DNA of 47,490 nt from Flavobacteriales bacterium (GTDB taxonomy: Bacteria > Bacteroidota > Bacteroidia > Flavobacteriales_D > Sanyastnellaceae): NCBI GenBank assembly GCA_027491075.1, contig JAIXWX010000023.1:1-47490 (forward strand). Reading direction: 5' to 3'. The translations under genes were made by a program, and so were the position numbers. The first letter of the stretch is position 1. Each line of letters opens with the position of its first letter. The notes beneath the pieces were generated by a model. The model was not told where the DNA came from, did not search any database, and saw only the letters and a program-made list of their open reading frames with translations. Of the stretch, positions 24,727 to 45,453 are shown piece after piece.

Positions 24727-24734
24727 TATATTCG
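24727..24734 (+). promoter_or_regulatory. TATATTCG element 4 nt before the DUF2490 ATG
   Basis: This is one mismatch from TAnnTTTG (C in the fourth-last base group), separated from the ATG at 24739 by exactly 4 nt. The same geometry recurs at four other plus-strand genes in the window, which strengthens an otherwise weak call and supports the internal ATG as the start. Confidence 0.4.
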
Positions 24735-24738
24735 CATT

Positions 24739-25416
24739 ATGCGCAAGGCCACTTTAATCGTCTTTTGTTTTCTCTCGTTGATCAGTTGGGCTCAAGAAGA
24801 TCCCTTCGCGGGAAAACTGGGCTCCTGGAACGTTCTCAATGTCAGTAAAGACTTTAATAAGACCTTTGGTGTTTTTGCCGAAGCTCAACTTCGAAGTTTA
24901 TCTTTCTACAATGAATTTCACTATTATGAATTCAAAGGTGGCTTTCACTATGATCTCGATAGTGTGTTTTCTTTTATAGTCGGCGCTGGGCGTTATGATA
25001 CGTATTCTTCTGGCGGCAATTTCGAAACCCCTGTGAAAAACCAAGAAATACGATCCTGGGGGGAGTTTCGAATTCGGCACGAATTTCGAAAAACACGACT
25101 GGACCATCGCTACCGGGCTGAGCAACGATTCACTTCCAATGGTTATCGAAATCGTTTTAGATATCGCCTGTCTCTTACAGTACCAATTAATAATTTAGAA
25201 ATTAAAAAAGGTGTTGCCTATGTGCAGTGCTGGAACGAACTTTTTTTCACTGATAAAGCCACTTATTTCGAAAGAAATAGAATTTACCTCGGTATTGGAA
25301 GAAAAATGACCGACCATCTTACTATTCAAAGCGGATATCTTCATCAGTTCGATTATAATTTGACCGACGAAACAGGAAGAGACTTTTTACAAATAGCTAT
25401 ATCTATAGACCTTTAA
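24739..25416 (+). CDS. DUF2490 domain-containing outer-membrane-like protein
   Basis: A 225-residue protein from the ATG at 24739. The open frame extends 26 codons upstream, but only this start gives a signal peptide (MRKATLIVFCFLSLISWAQ). The body matches DUF2490: W-N-V-L-N-V-S-K-D-F-x-K-x-F-G-V, then alternating amphipathic strands rich in Tyr, Arg and Phe (EFRIRHEFRKTRLDHRYRAEQRF, YRNRFRYRLSLTVPI, RIYLGIGRKMTDHLTIQSGY) and a terminal IAISIDL typical of an outer-membrane beta-barrel. Its substrate is unknown. The exported esterase gene follows after 12 bp, so the two probably share a transcript. Confidence 0.8.
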   Translation: MRKATLIVFCFLSLISWAQEDPFAGKLGSWNVLNVSKDFNKTFGVFAEAQLRSLSFYNEFHYYEFKGGFHYDLDSVFSFIVGAGRYDTYSSGGNFETPVKNQEIRSWGEFRIRHEFRKTRLDHRYRAEQRFTSNGYRNRFRYRLSLTVPINNLEIKKGVAYVQCWNELFFTDKATYFERNRIYLGIGRKMTDHLTIQSGYLHQFDYNLTDETGRDFLQIAISIDL

Positions 25417-25428
25417 ATACCGCAAACA

Positions 25429-26538
25429 ATGAACAAGATTATCTACTTGATATTTTCATTATTCAGCATACAGCTCTCCGCGCAAATCAGCGGATCACTT
25501 CAATTTGGGGGAGAGACCAGAAACTTCATCTATTACGTTCCCCAAACACTACCGCCGCAGGCGCCAATGCTCGTTTTAGTTTTGCACGGAGCAACTCAAG
25601 ATGGGCCCGCCATTGCCAATGTTAGCAACATGCATCAATTCACAAACTCCGCAAATGCCGTGGTGGTATATCCCGATGGAATAAGCAACAGTTGGAATGT
25701 AGGATTGTCGGTTGGAGGAAGCACCGCTGATGATGTTGGATTTTTGGATGCATTGATCGATTACTTCATTAACGACATAGGCGTAGACCCTCAAAAATTA
25801 TATTCCTGTGGCTTTAGCAATGGTGGATATATGAGCTATAAAATGGCTTGTGAATCTTCGCATTGTTTCTCAGCAGTTGCCTCCGTAGCTGGCGTTATGA
25901 CTCAAGGAATGATCGACAATTGTGGAGATCCTGGAGAAACTTCGATCATGCACATTCATGGTACCTCTGATTTCATCGTTAGTTACAATGGCTCTTCCTT
26001 TTCTGGTTTATCTGTGCAAAGCGTAATAGATCATTGGAATAATGCAAACAACTGCAGCAATGTGTCCACTACTATTGATATTCCTAATACCAATTTGACA
26101 GATTTCTCTACTGTAGAAAAAATCACTTGGACCGACTGTCAAAACAACTCCGAAGTAATCCTGTACAGAATAGATGGGGGCGGACACCAATGGCCTGACA
26201 CGGAAGCTGTGCTGGGTGGTGTTGGAGCAATCAATAGAGACATCAATGCCAGCGAAGAAATCATTTCCTTCTTCCAAGATCACTCTTGCCCATCCATCCA
26301 AAACACCAACAATGAGGAGCTCCTAAGCTTCCTGGTTTATCCAAATCCCACTCATGATAAAATTCGAATTTCCTTACCGAACAATCATTCGGTTCGCATT
26401 GAAATCAAAGATCTTTTGGGAAAAACACTATTTACAAAAGATGTTCAAAATAACGTTGACGTCAATTGTCAGGATTGGCCAACTGGAATTTACCTTGTTT
26501 GCAGTTCTGGTCAAGTCGAAAAGTTTTATAAGAACTAA
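25429..26538 (+). CDS. Secreted PHB depolymerase-family esterase with T9SS sorting domain
   Basis: A 369-residue protein: signal peptide about 1-19, alpha/beta-hydrolase (esterase/LpqC or PHB-depolymerase type) about 20-285, and T9SS type A sorting domain 295-369 (FLVYPNPTHDKIRIS ... WPTGIYLV). The catalytic triad is complete by eye: Ser130 in CGFSNGG, Asp181 in HGTSD and His253 in GGGHQWP. The oxyanion region LHGATQDG (about 52-59) is present. Related enzymes hydrolyse polyhydroxyalkanoates or feruloyl and acetyl esters; the substrate cannot be read from sequence. The sorting domain places it on the cell surface or outside. A copy of the 18-bp palindrome overlaps its sorting-domain codons. 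Confidence 0.88.
   Translation: MNKIIYLIFSLFSIQLSAQISGSLQFGGETRNFIYYVPQTLPPQAPMLVLVLHGATQDGPAIANVSNMHQFTNSANAVVVYPDGISNSWNVGLSVGGSTADDVGFLDALIDYFINDIGVDPQKLYSCGFSNGGYMSYKMACESSHCFSAVASVAGVMTQGMIDNCGDPGETSIMHIHGTSDFIVSYNGSSFSGLSVQSVIDHWNNANNCSNVSTTIDIPNTNLTDFSTVEKITWTDCQNNSEVILYRIDGGGHQWPDTEAVLGGVGAINRDINASEEIISFFQDHSCPSIQNTNNEELLSFLVYPNPTHDKIRISLPNNHSVRIEIKDLLGKTLFTKDVQNNVDVNCQDWPTGIYLVCSSGQVEKFYKN
26376..26393. repeat. 18-bp palindrome, site 3 (intragenic)
   Basis: The sequence is ACCGAACAATCATTCGGT, identical to site 1 about 20.5 kb away in an unrelated gene on the opposite strand. It lies in the esterase sorting domain at the codons for P-N-N-H-S-V. One arm mismatch from the consensus. 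Confidence 0.7.
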
Positions 26539-26596
26539 CACCCCAAGGCTTTTTTCTATCAAAAACATATCGAATAGAAATAACGGCTGAATCCAC

Positions 26597-26604
26597 TATA
26601 TTTG
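26597..26604 (+). promoter_or_regulatory. TATATTTG element 5 nt before an ATG
   Basis: An exact TAnnTTTG match, 5 nt before the ATG at 26610. If transcription starts 4-5 nt after the G, as the -7 position implies, the mRNA of the sialidase-like gene would begin at or next to its start codon. No -33 TTG is evident. Confidence 0.55.
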
Positions 26605-26609
26605 AGCCT

Positions 26610-29369
26610 ATGAAGACCTTTATTCTCTCTTTATCTTTTGCGCTGCTTCTTTGCGGAGGAGGTGCCCTATATCTAGCGACATTTACGGATAGCCTTCCTG
26701 GCGCAATGGAAGAAGGCTACGGCGTGAATCCATCCAGTAGAAGGTATTTCGAGTATCTCCGTCATCGCGATCCAAGCACTGGAGAGATTCCTCGCGACAT
26801 GCACTTAAGAGTGCGAGAATACACCTCGCGCCTTCCGCATAAAGAATATGATAGAAGCTTGAATTGGATTCAGAGAGGTCCAATCAATAAGGGCGGACGG
26901 TCAAGAGCGCTTGCATTGGATATTCAAGATGAAAACATCATCCTTGCTGGAAGTGTCTCTGGTGGAATGTGGCGATCTGCCAATGGAGGTCAAACATGGA
27001 CAAAAACTACTGCACCCTCACAGATACATACTACTTCTTGTGTTATTCAAGACATTCGACCAGGTCATGAAGACACATGGTACATGGGCACAGGAGAAGA
27101 GTTTTATGGAATCGTTAGCGGAACCTCCTTTGTTTCTCTGTACAGCGGAGATGGAATATTCAAGAGTACCGACAATGGGCAATCATGGCAACAATTGACT
27201 TCGACTGCATCAGGAACTCCCCAAAATGTAATGCAAAACGGAAGCTATGATTTCATTTGGAACATGGCCATTGATTATTCCAATCTTGAACAAGACGAAG
27301 TGTACGCTTCGGTGTACAATGGTATCATTCGAAGTGTTGATGGAGGAGAAACTTGGAGTCAAGTGCTAGGATTCACGGCCGCTGCTTCTCAATATGTAGA
27401 CGTAGTTGTAAATGAAGACGGAGTTGTTTATGCCTACATGAGTTTTGGCAACGGAGCCAATCCGAGAGGAGTATATCGCTCTCCCGATGGAATCAATTGG
27501 ACAGAAATCACACCAGATGGGTGGTACGATCAACAGCGGGGTGTGATGTGCTTTAATCCTATGAACGCGAACGAAATGTTTCTTATCGCAGAAATGGATA
27601 ACTCAGTTACTACGGTTGATCATGTCCTTTATAAATACACTTACGTATCAGGCGACGGCACGGGTTCGGGAGGTATTTGGGAAAATAGAAGTGCCAATCT
27701 CCCAGATACACCATGTGTGCTTCAAATTGGCACCAACTTCGATTTCGCTACATGGCGATCGCAAAATGGATTCGACCTTTGTATTACACATCACCCTACA
27801 CAAGAAGCGCTCTATATTGGAGGAATCAATATTCATAGAAGCACTTCCGCATTTCAATTAGACGATGAAGATTGGATAGGCGGTTACAGGTGCAATATCG
27901 AACAACCTACCAACTACAGTTATCCCAATCATCACAGTGATCAACATGTCATGGTCTTTTCTAGAGTAAACCCCAATGTAATGTGGAGTGCCAACGACGG
28001 CGGAATTTACCGCACTGACGATGCTCTCGCAGACAGCGTCGCATGGATCCCTTTGAATCACGGGTATCTAACCACCCAGTTCTATACCGTTGCAATGGAA
28101 CAAGGGCATGCTACCAGTGATTTTGTATTCGGTGGTATGCAAGACAATGGTACTTGGATTACACACACCACAGATACACAAGCTGATTGGAAAGAAGTAC
28201 ATGCAGATGATGGCGCATATTGCGCGCTTCCAGAAGGAAGAGATTTCATTCTTACCTCGTCTCAACTTGGTAGAATCTATAAGAAAACAATCAACGACCA
28301 AGGACAGCTTACCAACACCGAACGCATTGATCCAACATCAGGACCGAGCTATCTTTTCATCAATCCGTTCATTCTCGACTCTCAGACCCATGACGATATT
28401 TGGATGGCAGGCAATAGAACGATTTGGCATTTGCCCGCTGTTAGCTCTATTGAAGTAACAGGAGACTATATCAATAAACTAGAACTTGGAATATGGGACA
28501 ATGTGAGCGAGAGCATCATTCCAGTTTCCGCAGGCCCTATTACTACATTAGATCAATCCATCATCGATAACACGAAACTCTTTTACGCTTCTTCCAATGG
28601 CAGAGCCTGGATGTTGGACAGCATATTTGTAGATCCTGTTCGCACGGAAATCACTTCCGATTTGTGGCCGAACAACGCCTATGCATCTTGCATTTCGGTG
28701 AACGACTTGAACACGGACGAACTGATGATTTCATTTGCCAACTACAACGTCAATAGTATCTTTCACTCTTTAGATCAGGGAGAAACATGGGTAGACGTTA
28801 GTGGCAATCTTGAAGAAAATCCCAATGGCACAGGCGCAGGTCCTGCAGTATATTGGGTAGAAATTTATCCATCCACGCCTCAGATTTATTTTGCAGCAAC
28901 AAGCGCAGGTCTGTACAGCACTTCGCTTCTAGACGGCATGAACACTCTTTGGGAAATGGAGGGAGCAGAAACTATTGGGAACATTGTTGTGAACATGATT
29001 AAGGCGCGCCCATTTGATGGGAAAATAGCCATTGGAACGCACGCGAATGGAATTTTTACTTCGTCCTTACCACCTGTTGAAGCGGCCTCTGTTAGCAACG
29101 TGAGTATTTTTAGTTCAGATGTAAAAGTATTCCCCAACCCTTTTAACGATCAAGTTTCCTGGAATTTTACCACCAAGAAAGATCTATTGATACAACTGGA
29201 CGTATTCGATCTTCAAGGTAGAAAAGTTCACACCGAAAATCTAGCTAAGAGCAGAGCAGGTGCTCAAAATTTGAATTGGAGACCAACGAGAGAACTTCCA
29301 AAAGGTACCTATTTATACAAACTTTCAGTAGGAGACATTATTAAAACGGGTAAAATCATTCATCAATGA
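26610..29369 (+). CDS. Secreted BNR/sialidase-fold propeller protein with T9SS sorting domain
   Basis: A 919-residue protein. Signal peptide or anchor 1-27, then a multi-bladed beta-propeller (about 80-830) marked by Asp-box (BNR) repeats: RSANGGQTWTK, KSTDNGQSWQQ, RSVDGGETWSQ, RSPDGINWTE, RTDDALADSVAW and HSLDQGETWVD. The final 80 residues are the T9SS type A domain (VKVFPNPFNDQVSWNF ... PKGTYLYKLSVGDIIKTGKIIHQ). The fold is shared by sialidases, xyloglucanases and sortilin-like VPS10 proteins. I do not see a full sialidase arginine triad, so activity is uncertain. Its stop overlaps the next gene's ATG by 4 nt (ATGA). Confidence 0.85.
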   Translation: MKTFILSLSFALLLCGGGALYLATFTDSLPGAMEEGYGVNPSSRRYFEYLRHRDPSTGEIPRDMHLRVREYTSRLPHKEYDRSLNWIQRGPINKGGRSRALALDIQDENIILAGSVSGGMWRSANGGQTWTKTTAPSQIHTTSCVIQDIRPGHEDTWYMGTGEEFYGIVSGTSFVSLYSGDGIFKSTDNGQSWQQLTSTASGTPQNVMQNGSYDFIWNMAIDYSNLEQDEVYASVYNGIIRSVDGGETWSQVLGFTAAASQYVDVVVNEDGVVYAYMSFGNGANPRGVYRSPDGINWTEITPDGWYDQQRGVMCFNPMNANEMFLIAEMDNSVTTVDHVLYKYTYVSGDGTGSGGIWENRSANLPDTPCVLQIGTNFDFATWRSQNGFDLCITHHPTQEALYIGGINIHRSTSAFQLDDEDWIGGYRCNIEQPTNYSYPNHHSDQHVMVFSRVNPNVMWSANDGGIYRTDDALADSVAWIPLNHGYLTTQFYTVAMEQGHATSDFVFGGMQDNGTWITHTTDTQADWKEVHADDGAYCALPEGRDFILTSSQLGRIYKKTINDQGQLTNTERIDPTSGPSYLFINPFILDSQTHDDIWMAGNRTIWHLPAVSSIEVTGDYINKLELGIWDNVSESIIPVSAGPITTLDQSIIDNTKLFYASSNGRAWMLDSIFVDPVRTEITSDLWPNNAYASCISVNDLNTDELMISFANYNVNSIFHSLDQGETWVDVSGNLEENPNGTGAGPAVYWVEIYPSTPQIYFAATSAGLYSTSLLDGMNTLWEMEGAETIGNIVVNMIKARPFDGKIAIGTHANGIFTSSLPPVEAASVSNVSIFSSDVKVFPNPFNDQVSWNFTTKKDLLIQLDVFDLQGRKVHTENLAKSRAGAQNLNWRPTRELPKGTYLYKLSVGDIIKTGKIIHQ

Positions 29370-30775
29370 TAAACCGAATGTTCAATCGGTATTGGCTGCT
29401 TTTGTTTACCGTTTTCAGCTTTGAATGCGCTTTCGGAAGTATGACCATTCAAGTAACTGACCTGCCTCAATTAACGCCCATTTTAGATACACTGTATCTG
29501 GCTGGAACAGTGAACAACTGGGATGAAAATTCTTCGAGTCACATCCTCACGAATAGCAATGGAGTTTGGTCTGTAGAAATAGACGGAACAAATGGAAGTG
29601 TTATTGAATTCAAAATTACTCGTGGTACATGGGCCAGAGTGGAGGGTTCCATCAGTGGTGGGTATATTCCTAACAGAACGGTAGTTTATCAAAATGGTGG
29701 AGTGATTCAAATAACCATTGCCGGTTGGGAAGATTTTGACGGCACTACGACTGTTACTCCGCATGTGAGGGTGCTCGACTCTAATTATTACATGCCGCAA
29801 TTAAATAGAGCAAGAAGAATTTGGGTAGTGCTTCCGACAGATTATTACGAAACTTCTATTTCCTATCCTGTCCTATATCTTCAGGACGGTCAAAACCTCT
29901 TCAATGCAGGAACTTCATTTTCCGGCGAGTGGTCTGTCGATGAAAGCATCATCAACGAAGTGGCCAGTCCATGCGCTAAAATGATCATTATTGGAATTGA
30001 CAACGGTGGAGAAAACCGCCTTAACGAATACGCTCCTTGGGTGAATAACCAATACAATGCAGGTGGACAAGGAGATGAATATGCGGCGTTCATTGTTGAA
30101 ACCTTAAAGCCCTTTATTGATAGTTACTTTAGAACACTTCCAGATCGGCTTAACACAGGAATAGGGGGTTCCTCCCTGGGCGCTCTCATAAGTGCGTACG
30201 TGCTTTTTACTTACCCAGATGTGTTTTCAAAAGCTGCACTGTTCTCTTCTGCCTATTGGTTCAATCCAGAGATTTATAATCTAGCGGAAAACCATGTTGT
30301 ATTTCCTGATACTCGAATCTATCACGTCTGCGGCACCAATGAAGGCAATGGAAGTGTTTTGGAAGATCAAAACGACATGATGAATAGCCTCAATCAAGTG
30401 GGATATGATCCAGGACAATTGGAAGATATTGATTGGGTCGACGGGCAGCATAGCGAATGGTTTTGGGAAAGAGAATTCCCCGCTGCGGCAGACTGGCTTT
30501 TTGTCTGTCTTTCCAAAACTGGAAATATCTCTCATTCAATTTGCCGCGTTTATCCCAATCCAGCAGAAGATTTTCTTGTTGTAGAAAGTCAAAATGATAT
30601 TCCCATTGACTCAATACAGATTTTCAATCTTGAGGGAAAGATGGTTTCTAATCAGATGACAAATACAGGCAGAAGTGCACAAGTTTCCCTACATGGTCTT
30701 TTATCAGGAACCTATACTATAAAAGCGAAACTTCGAGGTGAATTTTATTTTGAATCCACTTTCTTAAAAAAATAA
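29366..30775 (+). CDS. Secreted putative esterase with starch-binding-like N-domain and T9SS sorting domain
   Basis: A 469-residue protein with four modules. Signal peptide 1-24. A CBM20-like beta-sandwich spans about 27-120 (LYLAGTVNNWDENSSSHILT, WSVEIDGTNGSVIEFKITRG). A putative-esterase alpha/beta-hydrolase (the Fes/esterase-D-like family) spans about 130-385: PVLYLQDGQNLF, nucleophile Ser270 in GGSSLGA, His362 in DGQHSEWFW. The T9SS type A sorting domain spans about 392-469 (CRVYPNPAEDFLVVE). The most likely role is hydrolysis of an ester on a polysaccharide; the substrate is unknown. The ATG overlaps the previous stop by 4 nt and a copy of the palindrome begins at codon 3. ridA starts 2 nt after its stop. 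Confidence 0.85.
   Translation: MINRMFNRYWLLLFTVFSFECAFGSMTIQVTDLPQLTPILDTLYLAGTVNNWDENSSSHILTNSNGVWSVEIDGTNGSVIEFKITRGTWARVEGSISGGYIPNRTVVYQNGGVIQITIAGWEDFDGTTTVTPHVRVLDSNYYMPQLNRARRIWVVLPTDYYETSISYPVLYLQDGQNLFNAGTSFSGEWSVDESIINEVASPCAKMIIIGIDNGGENRLNEYAPWVNNQYNAGGQGDEYAAFIVETLKPFIDSYFRTLPDRLNTGIGGSSLGALISAYVLFTYPDVFSKAALFSSAYWFNPEIYNLAENHVVFPDTRIYHVCGTNEGNGSVLEDQNDMMNSLNQVGYDPGQLEDIDWVDGQHSEWFWEREFPAAADWLFVCLSKTGNISHSICRVYPNPAEDFLVVESQNDIPIDSIQIFNLEGKMVSNQMTNTGRSAQVSLHGLLSGTYTIKAKLRGEFYFESTFLKK
29373..29390. repeat. 18-bp palindrome, site 4 (first codons of the esterase gene)
   Basis: The sequence is ACCGAATGTTCAATCGGT, one arm mismatch. It starts 4 nt past the esterase start codon and spans the codons for N-R-M-F-N-R-Y, a different reading frame relative to the palindrome than sites 1, 2, 3 and 5. 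Confidence 0.65.
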
Positions 30776-30777
30776 AT

Positions 30778-31209: not shown

Positions 31210-31262
31210 TTTTCTTGTAATAGGATCGTTGCTTTGGCACTGACTTTGAAAAGCACCTTGAC

Positions 31263-32084: not shown

Positions 32085-32109
32085 CAACCACTGATAAGTT
32101 CATATGAAA

Positions 32110-32144
32110 GGGAATGTGTTCGAAAGACACATTCCCTTATTTTT
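32110..32144 (+). terminator. Intrinsic terminator after the DUF3108 gene
   Basis: A perfect 10-bp stem, GGGAATGTGT (32110-32119) and ACACATTCCC (32127-32136), with a 7-nt loop is followed directly by TTATTTTT. It lies 25 nt past the DUF3108 stop. Its T-tract also forms part of the promoter element of the next gene. Confidence 0.85.
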
Positions 32145-32145
32145 G
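32138..32145 (+). promoter_or_regulatory. TAnnTTTG promoter element fused to a terminator T-tract
   Basis: TATTTTTG at these bases matches TAnnTTTG exactly and lies 24 nt before the ATG at 32170. Seven of its eight bases are the T-tract of the preceding terminator, so both signals share DNA. Confidence 0.5.
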
Positions 32146-32169
32146 CGTCAAACTTTTTATTCATACAAC

Positions 32170-33156
32170 ATGAAAGCCTTAGTAGAAGCATTTCCACAGC
32201 ATTTAAAGGAAGCCTTAGAAATCGGACGTACCGCCACATTCAACATACCTTCACGTTCTTTTGAGAACATTGTCATATCTGGTCTCGGGGGTTCTGGAAT
32301 TGGAGGCAAAATCGTTTCACAAATCGTTGCTGAAACCTGCTCTCTTCCTATCATCTGTACCAACGACTATGTGCTTCCCGCTTTTGTGAATGAAAAAACC
32401 TTATTGATCATCAGCAGCTACAGCGGCGATACCGAAGAAACCGTTGCCGCATTCCATGAGGGCCGATCCAAAGGTGCTGAAATCGCTTGTATTACTAGCG
32501 GAGGCAAAATTGCAGGTTACGCAAAAGAAATGGGGTTGAATTGCATCCTTATCCCTGGAGGAAATCCTCCACGATCTATGTTTGGCTACAGCGCTGTTCA
32601 GCAATTTTTCGTTTTAGCAGCATACGGCATTATCGATCGTTCATTTGAGACTTCTATTGAAAATACCATTCGATTGATCGAAAGCAATATCGCTGATATC
32701 AGAGCGACTTCCAAGTCTATCGCCGATCGCATTGTTTCTCGTATTCCAATTCTATATAGCGAAGCTCAATATGAAGGATTGGCTATTCGTTGGAGACAGC
32801 AAATAAATGAAAACAGTAAAATGCTCTGTTGGCATCATGTCTTCCCTGAAATGAACCACAATGAACTTGTAGGTTGGACCGGTGGTGACAATCGCGTTGC
32901 GGTGCTCATTATTCGCAACGAAGACGATCACAAACGTTCGCAAATTCGCATGGAACTATGTAAAAAACTCATGGGTGAAAAATGCGATACCATTATCGAA
33001 GTACATTCCAAAGGAAGCAATAGAATTGAGCGTACCTTCTATTTGAATCATCTTGGCGACTGGTTGAGCATTGATTTAGCAGAACTTCGTTCCGAAGACC
33101 CTGTGGCCATCCCAGCAATCATTTACTTGAAGGGAGAGTTGAGTAAAATCAATTAA
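32170..33156 (+). CDS. Bifunctional phosphoglucose/phosphomannose isomerase, SIS family
   Basis: A 328-residue protein from the ATG at 32170. The open frame starts at 32104, but those 22 codons lie inside the terminator and upstream of the promoter element. Family features: the first SIS domain with ISGLGGSGIGGKI (about 36-48), the phosphosugar loop SSYSGDTEETVAA (about 82-94), and the C-terminal region with HHVFPEMNHNELVGW, a Glu/His pair typical of the PGI/PMI type. The enzyme interconverts glucose-6-phosphate, fructose-6-phosphate and mannose-6-phosphate. lipB follows after 7 bp. There is no glycolytic cluster nearby. Confidence 0.88.
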   Translation: MKALVEAFPQHLKEALEIGRTATFNIPSRSFENIVISGLGGSGIGGKIVSQIVAETCSLPIICTNDYVLPAFVNEKTLLIISSYSGDTEETVAAFHEGRSKGAEIACITSGGKIAGYAKEMGLNCILIPGGNPPRSMFGYSAVQQFFVLAAYGIIDRSFETSIENTIRLIESNIADIRATSKSIADRIVSRIPILYSEAQYEGLAIRWRQQINENSKMLCWHHVFPEMNHNELVGWTGGDNRVAVLIIRNEDDHKRSQIRMELCKKLMGEKCDTIIEVHSKGSNRIERTFYLNHLGDWLSIDLAELRSEDPVAIPAIIYLKGELSKIN

Positions 33157-33163
33157 TCTGTTT

Positions 33164-33875: not shown

Positions 33876-33892
33876 CATTCGCTTCGCTCATG

Positions 33893-33919: not shown

Positions 33920-33934
33920 GCTAACGCCAGATAC

Positions 33935-33952: not shown

Positions 33953-33968
33953 ATCGAATTAAAAAATT

Positions 33969-34017: not shown

Positions 34018-34025
34018 TACTTTTG
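34018..34025 (+). promoter_or_regulatory. TACTTTTG element 4 nt before the miaE ATG
   Basis: An exact TAnnTTTG match separated by 4 nt from the ATG at 34030. It is consistent with a leaderless miaE transcript that starts independently of lipB. Confidence 0.55.
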
Positions 34026-34029
34026 TGCC

Positions 34030-34629
34030 ATGGAAAAGAAAAAAGTAATGCTCGGCCTTCGACTCGCTACTGATCCCCGATGGGTCAACGTCGTGGAGAA
34101 AAATATCGAGGAAATACTTACCGATCATGCCTATTGCGAACAAAAAGCCGCCAGCAACGCCATTACTTGTATTGTCAAATACCCAGAATATCCTGATCTC
34201 GTAGATGAAATGGTCCGAATATGTCGGGAAGAAATGGAGCACTTCGGGATGGTACATCACGAATTACAAAAAAGAGGATTAACTCTTGGCAGAGAGCGGA
34301 AGGATGAATATGTCAATGACCTTGCAAACTTTTTCAAACAAGGCGGAAGCAGAGAACAACAATTTGTAGATCGAATGCTCTTTGCAGCAATGATCGAAGC
34401 AAGAAGCTGTGAACGTTTCAAGATGCTATCCGAAAACATCTCTGATGAAGGATTGAGATCTTTCTATCGCGAACTCATGGAAAGCGAGGCAGAACACTAT
34501 GCTACCTTTATTGGCTTTGCTCGAAAGTACGGAAAAGACATCGATGTGGATAAACGATGGAACGAGTTCCTAGAATACGAAGCGGAATTGATGAGTAAGT
34601 ATGGAAAAAAAGAAACCATGCATGGCTAA
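34030..34629 (+). CDS. miaE: tRNA-(ms2io6A37) hydroxylase, MiaE-like
   Basis: A 199-residue ferritin-like di-iron protein. It carries the four-helix-bundle ligands expected for MiaE: Glu in CEQKAASNA, E-E-M-E-H (about residue 70-77), E-A-R-S-C-E (about 122-128) and S-E-A-E-H-Y (about 156-161). MiaE hydroxylates the isopentenyl group of ms2i6A at tRNA position 37. The standard length is about 200-250 residues, so this is complete. It overlaps the next start by 8 nt. Confidence 0.9.
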   Translation: MEKKKVMLGLRLATDPRWVNVVEKNIEEILTDHAYCEQKAASNAITCIVKYPEYPDLVDEMVRICREEMEHFGMVHHELQKRGLTLGRERKDEYVNDLANFFKQGGSREQQFVDRMLFAAMIEARSCERFKMLSENISDEGLRSFYRELMESEAEHYATFIGFARKYGKDIDVDKRWNEFLEYEAELMSKYGKKETMHG

Positions 34630-36607: not shown

Positions 36608-36629
36608 AGAGCGAAGATAATGAAAACAG

Positions 36630-39094: not shown

Positions 39095-39194
39095 TCGAAG
39101 CGAAGATATTTCATTGAATCCACAAAATTCAGATTCTCGAACAAATAACTTGTGGTTTGGTTTCTATATCTTAGACCCTAACCGGGCCTCAAAA

Positions 39195-40298
39195 ATGATT
39201 GGATTTCGCTTTACAGAATGGATTCCCGAAGCCGATAAAAGAAAACCCTTTGATCGGCTTAAGCCGCTTTTTATAGAATTATTAAACTACACCAGTGGAG
39301 ATGCTAAGGATGCATTAGACTGGATGGAGGAAATTGATAAGCAACAACCGCTTTTTTCTGATGATTACACTCGTGATGATTTCGAGCAAGAGTTGAAGAG
39401 AAATGGATATTTAAGAGAAGAATATAAAGACGGTAAAAATAGTTTGGGTCTGACCGCCAGGTCTGAGCAAGCAATAAGGCAGCGTGCGCTAGAACAGTTA
39501 TTTGGAAAGATGAAAAAGGCTTCTGGCGGAAAGCACAGAACGCGTCAACAAGGTGGAGGAGAAGAAAGTACAGAAATTACTAGGCCCTTTGTTTTTGGGG
39601 ACAAGCCCGAGCAGATTCGCATGAGCGAATCTTTACGCAATGCTCAAATCAATAACGGTACAGAGGAATTTCGTATCACTGAAAATGACTTAGAAGTTTT
39701 TGAAACTGAAAACTTATCCCAAGCATCCACAGTGCTAATGATTGATATTTCTCACAGTATGATTCTGTATGGAGAAGATCGCATCACTCCGGCAAAAAAA
39801 GTGGCAATGGCACTTTCTGAACTGATCATGAAACGGTATCCAAAAGATTCATTGGATATAGTGGTTTTTGGAGATGATGCATGGCCTGTAAAGGTAAAGG
39901 ATCTCCCTTATCTTCAAGTAGGACCGTACCACACCAATACAGTTGCTGGGCTGGAATTGGCGATGGATATTTTGCGCAGACGCAAAGCAAACAATAAGCA
40001 AATATTCATGATCACTGATGGCAAACCCTCTTGTTTGAAAGAAGGAGGGCGCTATTACAAAAACTCTTTTGGACTTGATCCATATATAGTCGGCAAATGT
40101 CTAAACCTCGCCAGAGTGTGCAGAAAGTCGGGTATTCCAATCACCACTTTTATGCTCACCGACGATCCTTATTTGCAACAATTTGTAGAAGACTTCACAG
40201 AGGCCAATCACGGCAAAGCACTCTTTACTGGATTACAAGGATTAGGAGAAGGTATCTTGATTGATTATGAAAGAAACAGAAAAAGAAGACGCAACTAA
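39195..40298 (+). CDS. VWA domain protein of a MoxR/AAA-VWA pair
   Basis: A 367-residue protein from the ATG at 39195. An upstream in-frame TTG at 39114 would add 27 residues, but the ATG gives the family's usual opening (MIGFRFTEWIP). The N-terminal half (1-170) is charged and helical (RSEQAIRQRALEQLFGKM, KHRTRQQGGG). The VWA domain spans about 178-355, with an intact metal site: DISHSM (Asp184, Ser186, Ser188), the Thr in HTNTVAGLELA and MITDGKPS. VWA proteins of this type work with the AAA protein encoded 2 nt downstream, usually to insert metals or remodel complexes; the client is unknown. Confidence 0.85.
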   Translation: MIGFRFTEWIPEADKRKPFDRLKPLFIELLNYTSGDAKDALDWMEEIDKQQPLFSDDYTRDDFEQELKRNGYLREEYKDGKNSLGLTARSEQAIRQRALEQLFGKMKKASGGKHRTRQQGGGEESTEITRPFVFGDKPEQIRMSESLRNAQINNGTEEFRITENDLEVFETENLSQASTVLMIDISHSMILYGEDRITPAKKVAMALSELIMKRYPKDSLDIVVFGDDAWPVKVKDLPYLQVGPYHTNTVAGLELAMDILRRRKANNKQIFMITDGKPSCLKEGGRYYKNSFGLDPYIVGKCLNLARVCRKSGIPITTFMLTDDPYLQQFVEDFTEANHGKALFTGLQGLGEGILIDYERNRKRRRN

Positions 40299-40300
40299 GT

Positions 40301-41779
40301 ATGAAAAATATTCAAGATATTAAAACCCTTGGCGAGCTCAAAGCTTCAGGGTACAAAAGTAAGAGCATCAAAGCAGAACTCAGAGACAATTTGGTTCGTT
40401 CTTTAAAACAAAAAAGCGATCCGTTTCCGGACATAGTGGGCTATGAAGAAACTGTAATCCCCGATATTCAAAGAGCGCTTTTAAGTGGACATAGTATGAA
40501 CCTTTTGGGATTACGCGGACAGGCAAAAACAAGGATTGCAAGAGGAATTACCCGTTTGCTCGATGAGTACATCCCTGTTGTATCTGGCAGTGAACTCAAC
40601 GATGATCCCTTACAACCCATTAGCCGATATGCGATAGATTTAATCGCCGAACATGGAGACAACACCCCCATTTCATGGATGCACCGCAGCGATAGATATG
40701 TAGAAAAACTAGCAACACCGGATGTCACCGTAGCGGATCTTATTGGCGATGTAGATCCCATCAAGGCAGCGAATTTAAAGCTCAGCTATAGCGATGAGAG
40801 GGCCATTCACTTTGGATTGATACCACGAAGCAATCGGTGCATATTTGTCATCAATGAGCTCCCTGATTTACAACCGCGCATCCAAGTTTCTCTCTTCAAT
40901 ATTCTGCAAGAAAGCGATATTCAAATCAGGGGTTTTCGTTTGCGCCTGGAGCTCGACGTGCAGTTCATTTTTACGGCCAACCCAGAGGACTATACGAATC
41001 GAGGAAGCATTATTACTCCATTAAAAGACAGAATTCAATCTCAAATTCTTACACATTATCCAAAGAGTTTAGAATTGGGGATGGCCATCACCCAGAGAGA
41101 AGCCAAAGTAGAAAAAACAAGACTCAAGCACATCGATATCCCTCATACGATTGCAATGCTCATAGAGATGATTGCATTTGAGGCCCGGGGATCAGAATAT
41201 GTGGATCAAAAAAGCGGTGTTTCCGCCCGTTTGACCATTTCTGCATTGGAGAACTTGGTCAGTTCTGTTGAAAGAAGGATATTGGTCAATGGAGAAAAAA
41301 ATGGAATCGCCCGCATTGGTGACTTACTGGCAGTAGTGCCCTCCATCACGGGTAAAGTGGAATTGGTGTATGAAGGTGAACAAGAAGGCCCGCAGTTCGT
41401 TGCTATGCGCTTGATGGGTCAGGCGTTGCGAAAATTGTTCCCTCAAATTTTTCCAAACCCCGAAACCTTTAAAAGAAAAAAACAAACTTCTCCCTATGAT
41501 GAAGTGATTACTTGGTTTACCGGCAATGAACTCGAACTTCATCGCGACGCCCCAGAATCAGAATACAGAGAGGCCCTCTTTTCCGTTCCGGGTCTCTACA
41601 GTGTTGTGAAGAAATATTGTCCTGATTTACCTCAAGAATATGAGTTGCTAATGATGGAATTGGTTCTTCATGGACTGAGTGAGTTTAGCCTCATTGGTAA
41701 AAATGTAATGAATTCATCCATAGAGTTCTCCGACGTAATGAATAGCCTTTTTGAGGACGATGAAGACGAAAGAGCCTAA
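40301..41779 (+). CDS. AAA ATPase of the magnesium-chelatase/MoxR type, partner of the VWA protein
   Basis: A 492-residue protein. The AAA core spans about 40-270: Walker A GLRGQAKT (70-77, with Ala where the canonical motif has Gly), Walker B IFVINEL (181-187, with Asn-Glu instead of Asp-Glu), and sensor 1 FIFTANPEDY (about 222-232). ChlI-like inserts (DLIGDVDPIKA, LIPRSNRC, QPRIQVSLFNILQE) are clear. A helical C-terminal part (about 290-480) follows. Genes of this family are often annotated magnesium chelatase, but no tetrapyrrole gene is present here. Remodelling of a protein complex with the VWA partner is more likely. It starts 2 nt after the VWA stop. Confidence 0.85.
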   Translation: MKNIQDIKTLGELKASGYKSKSIKAELRDNLVRSLKQKSDPFPDIVGYEETVIPDIQRALLSGHSMNLLGLRGQAKTRIARGITRLLDEYIPVVSGSELNDDPLQPISRYAIDLIAEHGDNTPISWMHRSDRYVEKLATPDVTVADLIGDVDPIKAANLKLSYSDERAIHFGLIPRSNRCIFVINELPDLQPRIQVSLFNILQESDIQIRGFRLRLELDVQFIFTANPEDYTNRGSIITPLKDRIQSQILTHYPKSLELGMAITQREAKVEKTRLKHIDIPHTIAMLIEMIAFEARGSEYVDQKSGVSARLTISALENLVSSVERRILVNGEKNGIARIGDLLAVVPSITGKVELVYEGEQEGPQFVAMRLMGQALRKLFPQIFPNPETFKRKKQTSPYDEVITWFTGNELELHRDAPESEYREALFSVPGLYSVVKKYCPDLPQEYELLMMELVLHGLSEFSLIGKNVMNSSIEFSDVMNSLFEDDEDERA

Positions 41780-41849
41780 TCTATGGAAACCAATAGGAAT
41801 CCATTGAGTGGGGTATTTTATATCTAATTAGTAATGTAGCATCAATCAA

Positions 41850-41866
41850 GCGCTTTAAATTAGCGC
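41850..41866. promoter_or_regulatory. Inverted repeat GCGCT-N7-AGCGC upstream of the M43 protease
   Basis: GCGCT (41850-41854) and AGCGC (41862-41866) flank TTAAATT. The repeat ends 5 bp before the promoter element of the metalloprotease gene, an operator-like position. No regulator is identifiable. Confidence 0.35.
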
Positions 41867-41871
41867 CTCTC

Positions 41872-41879
41872 TATTTTTG
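41872..41879 (+). promoter_or_regulatory. TATTTTTG element 4 nt before the M43 protease ATG
   Basis: An exact TAnnTTTG match separated by 4 nt from the ATG at 41884. The spacer from the AAA gene (41780-41883) holds only this and the inverted repeat before it. Confidence 0.55.
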
Positions 41880-41883
41880 GATT

Positions 41884-43989
41884 ATGAAAAGAATGCTTGC
41901 GGTAACTTTCGCCCTTTGTCTGGGTGGTTTACAAATGAACGCTCAAACAGTGGATGGAGTAAAGTATTGCGGCCAAGTAGGCCGTACTGCTAAATTCTTT
42001 GAACAACACCCACACTGTGTCAACGAGTCGCGCATAGCACAAGATCAATTGGAAGCGGAATATGCCGAAAGCATGGCAAATCGCGGGGGAGACATGATCA
42101 TCTATACCATTCCTGTTGTTTTTCATATCATTCACAACAATGGAGAAGAAAACATCAGTGATGAACAAATTTTCGACGCTTTAAACATTCTCAATAGAGA
42201 CTTTAGAAAACTCAATCCAGACACTGCTTCAGTTGTAGAGGCATTCGAAGACATCATCGCCGATGTAGGGATAGAATTCCGATTGGCGAGCAAGGATCCA
42301 TTCGGCAATTGCCACCCAGGAATCAATCGGGTGCAAAGCGAGTTGACCACAGAAGGTGGTAGTGAGATGAAAGCTTTGAGCGTATGGCCCCGAGATTCAT
42401 ACATGAATATTTGGGTATGTGCCGACGCCGGAGAAGGAGCGGCAGGCTATACATTTTTGCCCGCCACAGTAAATGGAGGTTGGGGTCAACTCAACGACGG
42501 GATCGTATTGCGTCACGACTACACGGGTTCCATAGGCACCAGTAGTCCTTTCCGCAGCCGCACACTCACACACGAAGTTGGTCACTGGATCAACCTTTTT
42601 CATACTTGGGGTCCTGGTAACTCTCCAAACGAACCAGAAAACTGCGACATCGACGACCTGGTTGAAGACACTCCAAACACCATCGGATTCCTCTCATGCA
42701 ACTTGTCTGGAGCTTCTTGCGGAAACGAAATTGATAACGTGCAAAACTACATGGAGTATAGCTATTGCTCACGCATGTTCACAATTGGTCAAGCCTTGCG
42801 TATGAGAGCTGCACTGACTAGTCCAATAGCAGAACGCAATGAGCTCATTACTGAATCCAACCTTATAGAAACGGGAGTAATCAATCCAGAACTTTGTTCT
42901 GCGTCGTTTGATATTGATATGAACTCTGGTTGTGTTGGTCAAGAAATGCAATTCTTTGATGTATCCTATCACGGCGTAACAGAATGGACTTGGAACTTCG
43001 GAGACGGCACTGTGATTACAGGATCCGATCCGTTAATCTATAAAAATCCTGTTCATGTATATGACACCCCCGGAGTTTATACCGTTTCACTTACCGTGGG
43101 AAATGGAACCGAAACCTTATCAGCAACGATCAACAATGCACTCACCATATTTGAAGAAGGTCTTCTAGAAAGTCCATTGGAAGAGGGATTCGAAGCTACA
43201 TTCCCAGATAACAAGTGGATTATTTACAATGTAAACGGTGGTCAAACTTTTGAAATCACACCCAGCGCTCAATTCTCTGGCGACAAGTCTTTGCGCTTGA
43301 GAAACTTCAGCAATCAGGTTGCTGGAAGTGTGGATTATTTTCTTTCAGCTTCCTATGACATGAGTGCAATGGATACCGTTTGGCTTAGCTACAAATGGGC
43401 CTATGCAAGTAAGGCAACAGAGCAAACCAATGATCGCTTGCGCATTCAAGTGAGTGGTGATTGTGGAACCACATGGAGTACCCGTCGCACCCGAACTGGA
43501 GAGGCAACACTTGCAACAGCTGATCCAATGAATAATCAATTCACTCCTACTTCCACAGCCCAATGGAATGGAGAAACCATCATTATTGCGGATTCTATTT
43601 GGATGACCGATGGCTTTCGTATTCGATTCGAGTTCACCGGTCAAGGTGGAAATAACTTCTTTATAGACGATATTAATTTGACATCTAGTGACACAGTCAC
43701 GCAAGTTATTTCAGGAGTTTCCGAAGTGAGTCCGTTGTTCCTGTATTCCGTTTATCCCAATCCTGCTTCAGAAAACGCAACGCTTCACTATGTAAGTACT
43801 CAAACCGAAAGCATAACAGTGAAGCTTTACAATGCACTCGGACAAATGGTCGGAGTCATTTACGATGGTCAGATTGGATCCGGTGAATATTACTGGAACA
43901 TTCCTCGTCCCGCTGCAGGAATCTATACGGTAGTGTTTGAAAAGCCCGGTTATAGGGCAACAGAGAAGGTCATGTTTTCTCCAAGATAA
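41884..43989 (+). CDS. Secreted M43 (cytophagalysin-type) metalloprotease with PKD and T9SS sorting domains
   Basis: A 701-residue protein. Signal peptide 1-21. M43 catalytic domain about 70-330: zinc motif HEVGHWINLFH (His230, Glu231, His234, His240) and Met-turn region VQNYMEYSYCSRMF, with paired Cys. A PKD domain spans about 345-425 (EWTWNFGDGTVITGSDP, PGVYTVSLTV). A lectin-like beta-sandwich at about 435-610 contains LRLRNFSNQVAGSVDYF and IRFEFTGQGGNNFFIDDI. The T9SS type A sorting domain lies at the end (FLYSVYPNPASENATLHYV ... AGIYTVVFEKPG). Cytophagalysins digest extracellular proteins. It has its own promoter-like element and is monocistronic with no terminator that I can see. Confidence 0.93.
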   Translation: MKRMLAVTFALCLGGLQMNAQTVDGVKYCGQVGRTAKFFEQHPHCVNESRIAQDQLEAEYAESMANRGGDMIIYTIPVVFHIIHNNGEENISDEQIFDALNILNRDFRKLNPDTASVVEAFEDIIADVGIEFRLASKDPFGNCHPGINRVQSELTTEGGSEMKALSVWPRDSYMNIWVCADAGEGAAGYTFLPATVNGGWGQLNDGIVLRHDYTGSIGTSSPFRSRTLTHEVGHWINLFHTWGPGNSPNEPENCDIDDLVEDTPNTIGFLSCNLSGASCGNEIDNVQNYMEYSYCSRMFTIGQALRMRAALTSPIAERNELITESNLIETGVINPELCSASFDIDMNSGCVGQEMQFFDVSYHGVTEWTWNFGDGTVITGSDPLIYKNPVHVYDTPGVYTVSLTVGNGTETLSATINNALTIFEEGLLESPLEEGFEATFPDNKWIIYNVNGGQTFEITPSAQFSGDKSLRLRNFSNQVAGSVDYFLSASYDMSAMDTVWLSYKWAYASKATEQTNDRLRIQVSGDCGTTWSTRRTRTGEATLATADPMNNQFTPTSTAQWNGETIIIADSIWMTDGFRIRFEFTGQGGNNFFIDDINLTSSDTVTQVISGVSEVSPLFLYSVYPNPASENATLHYVSTQTESITVKLYNALGQMVGVIYDGQIGSGEYYWNIPRPAAGIYTVVFEKPGYRATEKVMFSPR

Positions 43990-44004
43990 GGGGGCTGTAT
44001 CTTC

Positions 44005-44012
44005 TATATTTG
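44005..44012 (+). promoter_or_regulatory. TATATTTG element 4 nt before the pepA ATG
   Basis: An exact TAnnTTTG match separated by 4 nt from the ATG at 44017. It likely drives pepA-pdxA. Confidence 0.6.
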
Positions 44013-44016
44013 CGGT

Positions 44017-45453
44017 ATGAATATTCAAACCGCAAAAAGCAATACCAAAGCAGCTGTAAGGGCCATTGTCATTTCTAAAAGAAATGTTGCCGATACCAAA
44101 GGACTTACAAAAGAAGAGTTGGCCTATTTGATATCCGAAGCAGGTCAATTCAAGGATGTAGTTCAGATTCAACGTGCAGGTGAACTTACGCGCTATATTT
44201 TAATTGATCCAGATCTACACGATGCCGAGATGATCGAGATGTGGCGTGCGAAAGGAAAAGATCTACAAGCTCTAGCCAATGGAGCCAGCACCGATAAGCT
44301 GATCATCGTCAATGAAACAAAAAATAAACATGTTTCCCTTGCCCTCGCAGAAGGTGCTGCTTTGAGCAATTATCAGTTTTTAAAATACTTCAGAGACAAG
44401 AAGAATAAATCCAACTCCTTGGATAAAATATTCGTTCGTGACAACAATCTAAAAGATGCGGAAATAGAAGAATTGATGCGTGTCGTTTCTGCCACTATGA
44501 TGGCACGCGACCTCATCAATGAGCCCGTGTCTTATCTTACCGCTGTGCAGTTTGGAAAAGAGATGCAAAAAGCAGGGAAAGCACATGGATTCTCTGTGAA
44601 GGTGTTGCAGAAAAAAGAAATAGAAGCGCTTAAAATGGGTGGCTTATTGGGGGTAAACAAAGGAAGTATTGACCCTCCCACTTTTACCGTGATGGAATAC
44701 AAACCGAAAGGCGCCAAGAATAAAAAGCCGCTGGTTTTAGTAGGAAAAGGAGTTGTATTTGATACCGGAGGACTCAGTTTAAAACCTACCCCTGGTTCTA
44801 TGGATGAAATGAAATGCGATATGAGTGGCGGGGCAGCAGTTGTTGGTGCGATGTCGGCCATCGCATCCAATAAATTGCCGGTGCATGTCATTGGCCTTGT
44901 TCCAGCAACCGACAATCGACCAGGGATGAATGCTATATGTCCACAAGACATTATCACGATGCATGACGGTACGACCGTAGAGGTACTCAATACCGACGCG
45001 GAGGGAAGGTTATTGCTTGCAGATGCGCTGAGCTATGCCCAAAAATACAATCCAGAATTAGTCATCGATTTGGCCACGCTCACCGGAGCTGCGATGCGCG
45101 CAGTGGGATCCTATGCAAGCGCCGTCATGGGCACAGCAGATCAAAAAGTGATGGAACAATTGCAGAAGAGTGCTTTCGAAGTATGGGAGCGCGTGGTTCC
45201 ATTTCCACTTTGGAAAGAATACGGGGATGAAATGCGCAGTGATATCGCAGATTTAAAAAACCTAGGTGGGGCCAATGCCGGCCATATTAGCGCGGGTAAG
45301 TTCTTAGAACACTTCACTGCCTACCCCTGGATCCATATTGATATTGCAGGACCGGCATATACCAATTCTTCCCAGAGCTATCGTACAAAGGGAGGCGTAG
45401 GCGTAGGAGTGCGTATGCTCTATCATTTCATAAAAACGAATTACGCGAAGTAA
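44017..45453 (+). CDS. pepA: Leucyl aminopeptidase family M17
   Basis: A 478-residue cytosolic enzyme that removes N-terminal amino acids from peptides. The C-terminal M17 catalytic domain (about 160-478) holds the two-metal ligands and signature: GKGVVFDTGGLSLKP (245-259), MKCDMSGGAAVVGAM, VPATDNRPGMNAICPQDI and NTDAEGRLLLADALSYA (about 326-342). The N-terminal half is the less conserved macro-like domain. It starts right after a leaderless-type promoter element and is followed 1 nt later by pdxA. Confidence 0.93.
   Translation: MNIQTAKSNTKAAVRAIVISKRNVADTKGLTKEELAYLISEAGQFKDVVQIQRAGELTRYILIDPDLHDAEMIEMWRAKGKDLQALANGASTDKLIIVNETKNKHVSLALAEGAALSNYQFLKYFRDKKNKSNSLDKIFVRDNNLKDAEIEELMRVVSATMMARDLINEPVSYLTAVQFGKEMQKAGKAHGFSVKVLQKKEIEALKMGGLLGVNKGSIDPPTFTVMEYKPKGAKNKKPLVLVGKGVVFDTGGLSLKPTPGSMDEMKCDMSGGAAVVGAMSAIASNKLPVHVIGLVPATDNRPGMNAICPQDIITMHDGTTVEVLNTDAEGRLLLADALSYAQKYNPELVIDLATLTGAAMRAVGSYASAVMGTADQKVMEQLQKSAFEVWERVVPFPLWKEYGDEMRSDIADLKNLGGANAGHISAGKFLEHFTAYPWIHIDIAGPAYTNSSQSYRTKGGVGVGVRMLYHFIKTNYAK

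Follow-up and report, generated by a model that had tools for sequence, protein, structure and literature searches.

Candidate leaderless genes with a TAnnTTTG promoter box four to five nucleotides before the start codon in a Sanyastnellaceae genome

In the genome of a Flavobacteriales bacterium of the family Sanyastnellaceae, a minority of genes carries the box TAnnTTTG 4–5 nt before the ATG, and the mRNAs of these genes very probably start at the AUG or one base before it. The spacing is sharp, depends on the whole box, comes with a pyrimidine-purine start signature and is conserved in part of the orthologs. Shine-Dalgarno helices play no part in the translation of most Bacteroidota genes, and the way in which such starts are recognised is still under study. 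We envisage that TAnnTTTG serves the housekeeping sigma factor of Bacteroidota as its -7 element and that RNA polymerase would start 4–5 nt after it; where an ATG lies exactly there, the mRNA would open at the AUG itself or one base earlier. A message of this kind may be translated by direct recognition of its 5′ AUG by a ribosome charged with initiator tRNA, which would be feasible in a phylum where ribosomes rely little on the Shine-Dalgarno helix. According to the available portions of published work, the box occupies positions -12 to -5 of mapped Flavobacterium starts (PMC9723704) and lies 4–5 nt before the transcription start in F. johnsoniae (PMC6847099). Given the former placement, the A of the ATG becomes +1 when the spacing is 4 nt. 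Together with the 4–5 nt peak described below, this supports the proposal of an earlier, sequence-only reading that transcription starts at that A, which would make these messages leaderless. Leaderless mRNAs from the TAnnTTTG promoter have already been published as a minority class, and the kind is thus known.

The window, a stretch of 47,490 nt (contig JAIXWX010000023.1), contains five such sites:

24727..24741, + strand: DUF2490 gene (24739-25416); box variant TATATTCG with T to C in the box, then CATT-ATG (4 nt).
26597..26612, + strand: sialidase/BNR-like, T9SS-tailed gene (26610-29369); box TATATTTG, then AGCCT-ATG (5 nt).
34018..34032, + strand: miaE (34030-34629); box TACTTTTG, then TGCC-ATG (4 nt).
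41872..41886, + strand: M43 peptidase gene (41884-43989); box TATTTTTG, then GATT-ATG (4 nt).
44005..44019, + strand: pepA/M17 gene (44017-45453); box TATATTTG, then CGGT-ATG (4 nt).

All ten box positions that the sequence-only reading had given, these five and the five leadered ones listed further below, are confirmed in the sequence, as are its spacings of 4 nt at miaE, M43 and pepA, 5 nt at the sialidase-like gene and 4 nt with one mismatch at DUF2490. In every one of the five sites the box has the form TAHH, neither free position being a G, and one of the five ends in TTCG. TAnnTTTG lies 4–5 nt before four of the window's 33 called gene starts, compared with none for 28 of 29 permuted motifs and one for the remaining motif. 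The 4-nt pattern occurs three times, against a shuffle mean of 0.65; taken alone, the window is only suggestive, because 4 of 100 shuffles reach this count.

At larger scale, we measured the distance from TAnnTTTG to the start codon in about 41% of the window's genome (1.25 Mb), where 939 genes were called blind to the upstream sequence; the sample consists of five long contigs already met in the motif search and is not a random draw. The histogram of box-to-ATG distances, which had been put forward as a check, is not flat but sharply peaked: 31 genes have the box at 4 nt, 11 at 5 nt, 16 at 6–9 nt and one at 10–12 nt, and a second, broad mode follows from 13 nt on. With 29 permuted motifs as the specificity control, the count at 4 nt averages 0.3 and never exceeds 2; at 4–5 nt combined, the box precedes 42 of the 939 sampled starts, as opposed to 0–5 for permuted motifs. 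The one-mismatch box TAnnTTCG peaks at 4 nt as well (10 genes, and 0–2 at every other distance from 0 to 15). With TT[TC]G allowed and the box sought within 60 nt, the 4–5 nt class comprises 53 of the 939 called genes, or 53 of the 263 with a recognisable box, and the leadered class 129; these are the groups compared below. Across the whole genome, raw matches at 4 nt number 115, compared with 31 for the same pattern read backwards and with 40 per position at 10–12 nt.

Are these ATGs the true start codons, and do the messages begin there? In three of the five window proteins a signal-peptide-like stretch opens directly at the predicted start (by eye), and MiaE aligns in register to its Pfam model, which makes the start codons of the window genes credible. 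All 53 genes at 4–5 nt start with ATG, a count weakened by the gene caller's preference for that codon, and 39 of the 53 lack an alternative in-frame start upstream. ATG is the outlier among trinucleotides at offset 4 after the box (70 versus 27.7 expected, z 8.0; AAA is next, z 3.5). We also considered a GTG class of leaderless starts and rejected it, as GTG, TTG and CTG show no excess at this offset. It is unlikely, in our judgment, that the boxes, though real promoters, supply only the lesser part of each mRNA, with most of it coming from a promoter farther upstream, or that the protein starts at a later codon, so that the functional message is leadered. Such a situation is conceivable for the 7 of 42 exact-box genes (5 at 4 nt, 2 at 5 nt) that follow a co-directional gene at a distance below 20 nt, where read-through is likely, and for genes with another in-frame start nearby: the next candidate lies a median of 17 codons downstream, and 2–3 codons downstream in 7 of 53. 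Against this, the upstream neighbour is divergent for 49% of the genes at 4–5 nt, versus 27% of those lacking a near box; where protein alignments and signal-peptide-like stretches were read, they open at these ATGs; and some of the orthologs retain the exact distance, often in flanking sequence that is dissimilar by eye.

The sequence around the start also bears on whether the motif acts in DNA or in RNA. Transcription generally starts at a purine (+1) preceded by a pyrimidine (-1). When the box is at 4 nt, -1 is a pyrimidine in 37 of 41 genes, compared with 380 of 735 that lack a near box and 86 of 129 in the leadered class; the purine at +1 in the 4-nt class is A by construction. TA stands ahead of TT[TC]G in 41 of 57 cases at 4 nt versus 86 of 820 at 60–129 nt (p 7e-25), and 26 of the 31 sampled genes at 4 nt have the TAHH form. 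The absence of a Shine-Dalgarno sequence and of a -33 TTG, noted by the sequence-only reading at the window starts, extends to the class: a Shine-Dalgarno-like 4-mer at -18 to -4 is found in 0 of 53 leaderless-class genes, 5 of 129 leadered ones and 57 of the 731 others, and a search upstream of the 53 leaderless and 129 leadered boxes reveals no TTTG peak. A fixed distance to the ATG would also be expected of a ribosome-binding element, and the motif could in principle be a translation-initiation signal in the mRNA rather than a promoter. We regard this as most improbable, since the motif is the known -7 promoter consensus in full, down to the TA two bases upstream, the same element also occurs at 13–30 nt, its spacing to the ATG is the published spacing from box to transcription start, the pyrimidine at -1 is typical of transcription starts, and boxes stand back-to-back on both strands between divergent genes. 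As for the products, their Pfam families are a mixture from metabolism, RNA modification, envelope and transport. Three of the five window genes had suggested a bias toward signal peptides or secretion, for which a crude test gave no support (18/53, against 42/129 leadered genes and 212/735 others).

Conservation of the spacing is uneven among the window genes. For miaE, 30 of 37 matches were read, with preference given to an ATG that has a box at 3–6 nt and lies no more than 25 codons from the expected start; among the 29 other family loci, the exact box lies at 4 nt in 11, at 5 nt in three and at 7 nt in one, and 14 have none within 45 nt. For pepA, relatives L111 and L132 have the box at 4 and 5 nt before the same codon, and six relatives at 66–68% identity have it at 23 nt (61 of 80 loci read, 6 of them with no ATG found; the 19 left out are mostly matches beginning inside the protein). 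The sialidase-like gene has a counterpart in the same-genus genome G179, with TATATTTG-4nt-ATG at the start of the matching fragment; of nine further family members with a readable start, eight lack a box at 4–5 nt and one (L423) has it 5 nt ahead of one of the ATGs at which it may start. An M43 relative is present at three of the five pepA loci given, with the box at 24 nt (L111), at 21 nt (L129) or absent (L132), and for DUF2490 the spacing is not kept in the six homologs read of 25 non-self matches. The spacing is thus kept in relatives for miaE and pepA, in none of those read for M43 and DUF2490, and not clearly beyond the genus for the sialidase-like gene. M43 and DUF2490 are therefore weaker cases than miaE, pepA and, within the genus, the sialidase-like gene, the spacing being absent in their relatives read.

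A broader comparison comes from G179, in which 70 fetched loci gave 76 distinct matches, 66 with a frame of at least 60 aa. Orthologs of the G179 genes with the box at 4 nt were located 29 times in the window genome (G000), 18 in the 939-gene sample and 11 at loci that had been fetched on account of the motif (10 of these 11 at 3–5 nt); the test is limited to the 18 for that reason. Nine of the 18 keep a box at 3–5 nt, against a baseline, by the same procedure, of 57 of 939 genes (p 6e-7). Of the other nine, five carry the box at 7, 7, 16, 18 and 21 nt. In two more the aligned position lacks an ATG, one of these having the box 4 nt ahead of a GTG, and in the last two no exact box lies within 32 nt. 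By eye, the ortholog flanks are often different; in some pairs (e.g. L265, L289, L292) they are similar. One gene, of the Methyltransf_30 family and presumably mnmD, was considered as an order-wide conserved leaderless gene and rejected: the box is at 4 nt in its own genus only (2 loci) and at 6 nt in one more family member, and the other 22 of 25 located loci do not have it at 3–6 nt, including 4 with no ATG found. The query, the first 30 residues, reached 26 of 80 genomes.

The coexistence of two classes of starts, suggested from the window, is borne out by the histogram, with its peak at 4–5 nt, its near-empty stretch at 10–12 nt and its broad mode from 13 nt. Leadered genes in the window, with checked box positions, are:

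4443..4450, - strand: box 37 nt before the ATG (4405).
10772..10779, - strand: box 18 nt before the ATG (10753).
20577..20584, - strand: box 49 nt before the ATG (20527).
24575..24582, - strand: box 25 nt before the ATG (24549).
32138..32145, + strand: box 24 nt before the ATG at 32170; the gene caller chose a longer frame from 32104.

The leadered class rests on the gene-call histogram, because raw ATG counts at 17–24 nt in this genome, made without gene calls, show no rise over the backward control (374 versus 375). Genes of this class (box at 13–35 nt) are A-rich at -8 to -5 and at -3 (0.38–0.42 A).

Within the window's own family, the 4-nt peak recurs in 17 of 17 genomes surveyed, each above its own 10–12 nt level (lowest ratio 1.59). 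Chance, with the spacing picked out by a reader seeking it, might serve for the window, given the shuffles and the two of five sites not conserved in relatives read, but is exceedingly unlikely for a peak that stands in 1.25 Mb with blind gene calls, genome-wide and in all family genomes surveyed; it is already refuted for the class, and a single site such as M43 could be accidental. The mean excess at 4 nt over the 10–12 nt level is 58 in family f1, 64 in f2 and 79 in f41. Leaderless usage differs between families of Flavobacteriales, some of which have no excess, and in a phylum survey (148 genomes, judged by eye) many genomes from outside the class do not exceed their own control. Samples of genomes G189 and G176 (381 and 276 kb) are too small for histograms of their own; in G189, 4 raw matches fall in the 381-kb sample, compared with 81 genome-wide.

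Back-to-back leaderless pairs, with start codons 24–54 bp apart, are found in 130 of 399 genomes, and in one with the backward control. In such a divergent pair, with start codons some 24–54 bp apart and each gene with its own box 4 nt before the ATG, two polymerases would have to share the same DNA and exclude each other, possibly creating an either/or switch without a regulator. It is possible, though we put it forward tentatively, that a heritable family preference for leaderless starts permits ultra-compact divergent promoters of this kind. Among the open-licence papers listed, no earlier description of compact divergent leaderless promoters was found. In practical terms, the rule of a box 4–5 nt before an ATG, read from sequence alone, yields for each genome some 60–80 exact candidates for leaderless genes in families where such starts are used. 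It separates these families from those without an excess, aids start-codon annotation and points to gene pairs whose two promoters would have to compete.

How does this compare with known systems? As far as the accessible parts of the mapping studies go, leaderless mRNAs are rare in Bacteroidota, a point against the leaderless reading: about 3.7% of 5′ UTRs are under 10 nt (PMC7366714), and 87% of F. johnsoniae leaders exceed 10 nt (PMC6847099). A survey confined to Pribnow-like signals, insofar as it could be consulted, reports leaderless genes in 1 of 37 Bacteroidetes/Chlorobi genomes and notes that its approach overlooks any leaderless gene driven by another type of promoter (PMC3160421). 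Judging by the same partial text, the leaderless genes of Actinobacteria, Deinococcus and Archaea likewise have a promoter element abutting the start codon at a fixed spacing, but the element is a different one (PMC3160421). The adenine-rich, Kozak-like leadered starts of F. johnsoniae, as far as described there, resemble the leadered class of this genome (PMC6847099); the 4-nt genes, in contrast, have a pyrimidine at -1 and, if leaderless, would have no such context in the mRNA. The promoter itself appears to match the sigma-ABfr-type housekeeping promoter (-33/-7, TAnnTTTG / TAHHTTTG) in its 8-base box and its 4–5 nt spacing to the presumed start, with the difference that spacing is measured here to the ATG and there to the mapped 5′ end; the -33 element, for which no TTTG peak is seen here, is also hardly visible in the portion seen of the F. 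johnsoniae promoter set (PMC6847099). Closest of all are the leaderless mRNAs of Flavobacterium psychrophilum, which belong to the same order and, on what is available of that report, share the box and the position of the start at the codon; they make up 5.5% of 890 mRNAs with mapped starts (PMC9723704), and the corresponding figures here, 53 of 939 genes or 53 of 263 box-bearing genes, are box-based and not comparable one to one with mapped shares.

The sequence-only reading proposed that the Bacteroidota -7 element TAnnTTTG (hereafter the box) lies 4–5 nt before the ATG of five genes in the window and farther upstream of five others. A letter-by-letter check bears out all ten sites, distances being counted from the end of the box to the start codon:

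34018, exact box, 4 nt before ATG, MiaE gene
41872, exact box, 4 nt before ATG, M43 peptidase gene
44005, exact box, 4 nt before ATG, M17 aminopeptidase gene (pepA)
26597, exact box, 5 nt before ATG, BNR/sortilin-like (sialidase-like) gene
24727, variant box TATATTCG, 4 nt before ATG, DUF2490 gene
4443, box 37 nt before ATG, comparison gene
10772, box 18 nt before ATG, comparison gene
20577, box 49 nt before ATG, comparison gene
24575, box 25 nt before ATG, comparison gene
32138, box 24 nt before ATG at 32170, comparison gene

The last gene is listed from 32104, but its true start is probably the ATG at 32170; the first 22 codons of the listed frame look like an erroneous start call. The sialidase-like protein has a BNR match just over the cut-off, a sortilin match under it and a T9SS tail, and the M43 peptidase carries a PKD domain and a T9SS tail.

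The observation is real. Judged on the window by itself, the 4-nt pattern is no more than mildly improbable: it occurs three times, versus a mean of 0.65 in shuffles, of which 4 in 100 reach three. Across the whole genome (G000; 3.02 Mb in 34 contigs), box, 4 nt and ATG occur together 115 times, versus 31 for the same pattern read backwards. The closest pepA relatives in the genome collection come from Flavobacteriales metagenome genomes and are 74–75% identical at the protein level; the title of one such genome gives a pond as its source. We then took a 1.25 Mb sample comprising stretches of five long contigs and the window, in which 939 genes were called from coding score only, without regard to what lies upstream. 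The sharp 4–5 nt peak to which the sequence-only reading had looked is present: TAnnTTTG lies 4 nt from the start in 31 genes, 5 nt in 11, 6–9 nt in 16 and 10–12 nt in one, and beyond this near-empty interval comes a broad second mode (tallest value 11, at 18 nt), so that the two co-existing classes it had described are visible in this histogram. At 4 nt, 29 permuted motifs give a mean of 0.3 and a maximum of 2 in the same genes. TAnnTTCG, previously regarded as a one-mismatch box, has its own peak at 4 nt (10 genes). Allowing TT[TC]G, 53 of the 939 called genes, or 53 of the 263 having a box within 60 nt, fall at 4–5 nt. When every box in the sample is simply scanned for a following ATG, independently of gene calls, offset 4 yields 49 and offset 5 yields 32, other offsets from 0 to 60 giving 8–27. 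The leadered mode is faint in raw counts for the whole genome (374 at 17–24 nt versus 375 for the backward control). The scarcity at 10–12 nt looks as if leaders of about 6–8 nt were avoided.

Why should 4–5 nt correspond to the first codon? The box occupies -12 to -5 in F. psychrophilum (PMC9723704), and probable promoters of F. johnsoniae have a box-to-start gap of 4 or 5 nt (PMC6847099). By this spacing, a 4-nt gap would place +1 on the A of ATG. Base signatures at the start agree, and support such a transcript start at the 4-nt genes: position -1 is occupied by a pyrimidine in 37 of 41 such genes, versus 380 of the 735 with no near box and 86 of the 129 leadered ones. A correctly placed TA precedes TT[TC]G in 41 of 57 cases at 4 nt versus 86 of 820 far upstream, a coupling which suggests that the whole promoter element, not TTTG alone, is selected. 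At offset 4, ATG is the sole start codon in excess. The lack of a Shine-Dalgarno sequence, remarked at the window's own starts, extends to the class, as none of the 53 genes at 4–5 nt has a Shine-Dalgarno-like 4-mer. A leaderless reading of the five window genes is supported by sequence. One possible leaderless GTG start was also seen: the G000 ortholog of the gene at locus L276 has box TAAATTTG 4 nt before GTG, where the same-genus genome G179 has ATG.

Readings of orthologs suggest that leaderless starts are often kept inside the genus and sometimes across the family, with turnover beyond. Among 18 G179 genes with a box at 4 nt and an ortholog in the G000 sample, nine orthologs have a box at 3–5 nt; the same procedure applied to all 939 genes finds 57 (p 6e-7). 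Of the other nine, five have it at 7, 7, 16, 18 or 21 nt, two lack an ATG at the aligned place (one of these has the box 4 nt before a GTG), and two lack an exact box inside 32 nt. For miaE, we read 30 of 37 matched family loci, from a search that favoured ATGs with a near box and is therefore biased towards conservation; in the 29 loci other than the window's, an exact box lies at 4 nt in 11, 5 nt in three and 7 nt in one, and is absent inside 45 nt in 14. In five of these 14 (L359, L360, L361, L377, L380) a box with one mismatch lies at 4 nt, and several further loci without a box look, by eye, like second genes of operons. For pepA, 61 loci were read: the box is at 4–5 nt in two (4 nt in L111, 5 nt in L132) and 15–27 nt before an in-frame ATG in 19; six relatives of 66–68% identity have it at 23 nt. 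The sialidase-like gene has its box at 4 nt in G179; nine more members could be read at the start, and a box at 4–5 nt is missing from eight of them, while in L423 a box precedes one of the candidate ATGs by 5 nt. Among M43 relatives, two have the box, at 24 nt and at 21 nt, and a third lacks it; it is also absent from the six DUF2490 homologs read of 25. Three sialidase-like orthologs (L418, L422, L424) carry a shorter TAnnTTG plus C just before ATG, where the window has TAnnTTTG; this resembles the SM5 motif described in F. psychrophilum (PMC9723704).

The 4-nt signal is uneven across genomes. We compared, for 80 genomes from the order, the count at 4 nt with the per-position count at 10–12 nt. 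The window's own family gives 1,432 versus 449, raised in 17 of 17 genomes (weakest G194, 53 versus 33). Among other families, the ratio is 2.5x in f41, 2.0x in f2, 1.13x in f35, 1.07x in f44 and 1.00x in f37; the single genome of f39 reaches 1.95, yet stays under its backward control (59 versus 65). One f44 genome was sampled over 276 kb, and of the 178 genes there, one has a box at 3–5 nt. Summed by family, counts at 17–24 nt exceed the backward control in 12 of 13 cases; G000 itself shows no such excess. Judged by eye, unevenness is likewise apparent among 148 genomes of the phylum. G189, an own-family genome (59.7% GC in sample), matches the 4-nt pattern 81 times over its whole length, roughly 10x its 10–12 nt level, but only four times in the 381 kb sampled, so these matches may be unevenly spread.

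Compact divergent pairs are an unexpected setting for these starts. In the G000 sample, a 4–5 nt box occurs on one side in 12 of 21 divergent pairs with start codons ≤60 bp apart, versus 14 of 129 wider pairs, and on both sides in none of the 150. This enrichment is partly geometry, because a short gap leaves scant room for a leader. We also searched 399 Flavobacteriales genomes for a symmetric pattern, in which each strand carries a box 4 nt ahead of an ATG and 0–30 bp separate the two boxes: 130 contain it, and one (G208, count 2) contains its backward control. A single pair of this kind, lying beyond the sample, is present in G000. We read 33 pairs in 34 loci, the first ones returned rather than a random draw: in 28, each side has an open frame of ≥60 aa, and in five, one side or more lacks a gene-like frame. 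The 28 make up nine gene-pair families, one with 10 pairs, and their start codons are 27–52 bp apart. One pair, which we take to be a TatD-like gene and a glycosyltransferase-9-like gene, is common to G000 and G179, the two genomes of this genus; its start codons are separated by 34 bp in the former and 39 bp in the latter, and each ATG has a box 4 nt before it:

G000:C6:35820-35859 (locus L036), shared divergent pair
G179:C136:74968-75012 (locus L298), shared divergent pair

Since a polymerase footprint on either promoter would cover the other, mutual exclusion of the two is a natural hypothesis.

Related work gives 5.5% leaderless mRNAs in F. psychrophilum (PMC9723704), leaders >10 nt in 87% in F. 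johnsoniae (PMC6847099) and 5′ UTRs <10 nt in ~3.7% in B. thetaiotaomicron (PMC7366714). The denominators differ from our 53/939 or 53/263, and we claim no higher rate. A 2011 survey that searched for Pribnow-like boxes only reports them for a single genome among 37 from Bacteroidetes/Chlorobi; it admits that other promoters were missed, but deems high missed percentages unlikely (PMC3160421). A 2017 study weighed leaderless mRNAs as a possible cause of the AT-rich bias before Bacteroidetes starts, and concluded that the bias is not simply attributable to them (PMC5397173). In gene-finding work, AT-rich non-canonical ribosome-binding sites form the category to which the FCB group is assigned (PMC9581028). 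Leaderless mRNAs from such a promoter are thus of an already known kind, of which G000 is a further case; what the analysis adds is the measured histogram with its two classes, the pattern of bases around the start, the uneven conservation, the differences between families and the compact divergent pairs.
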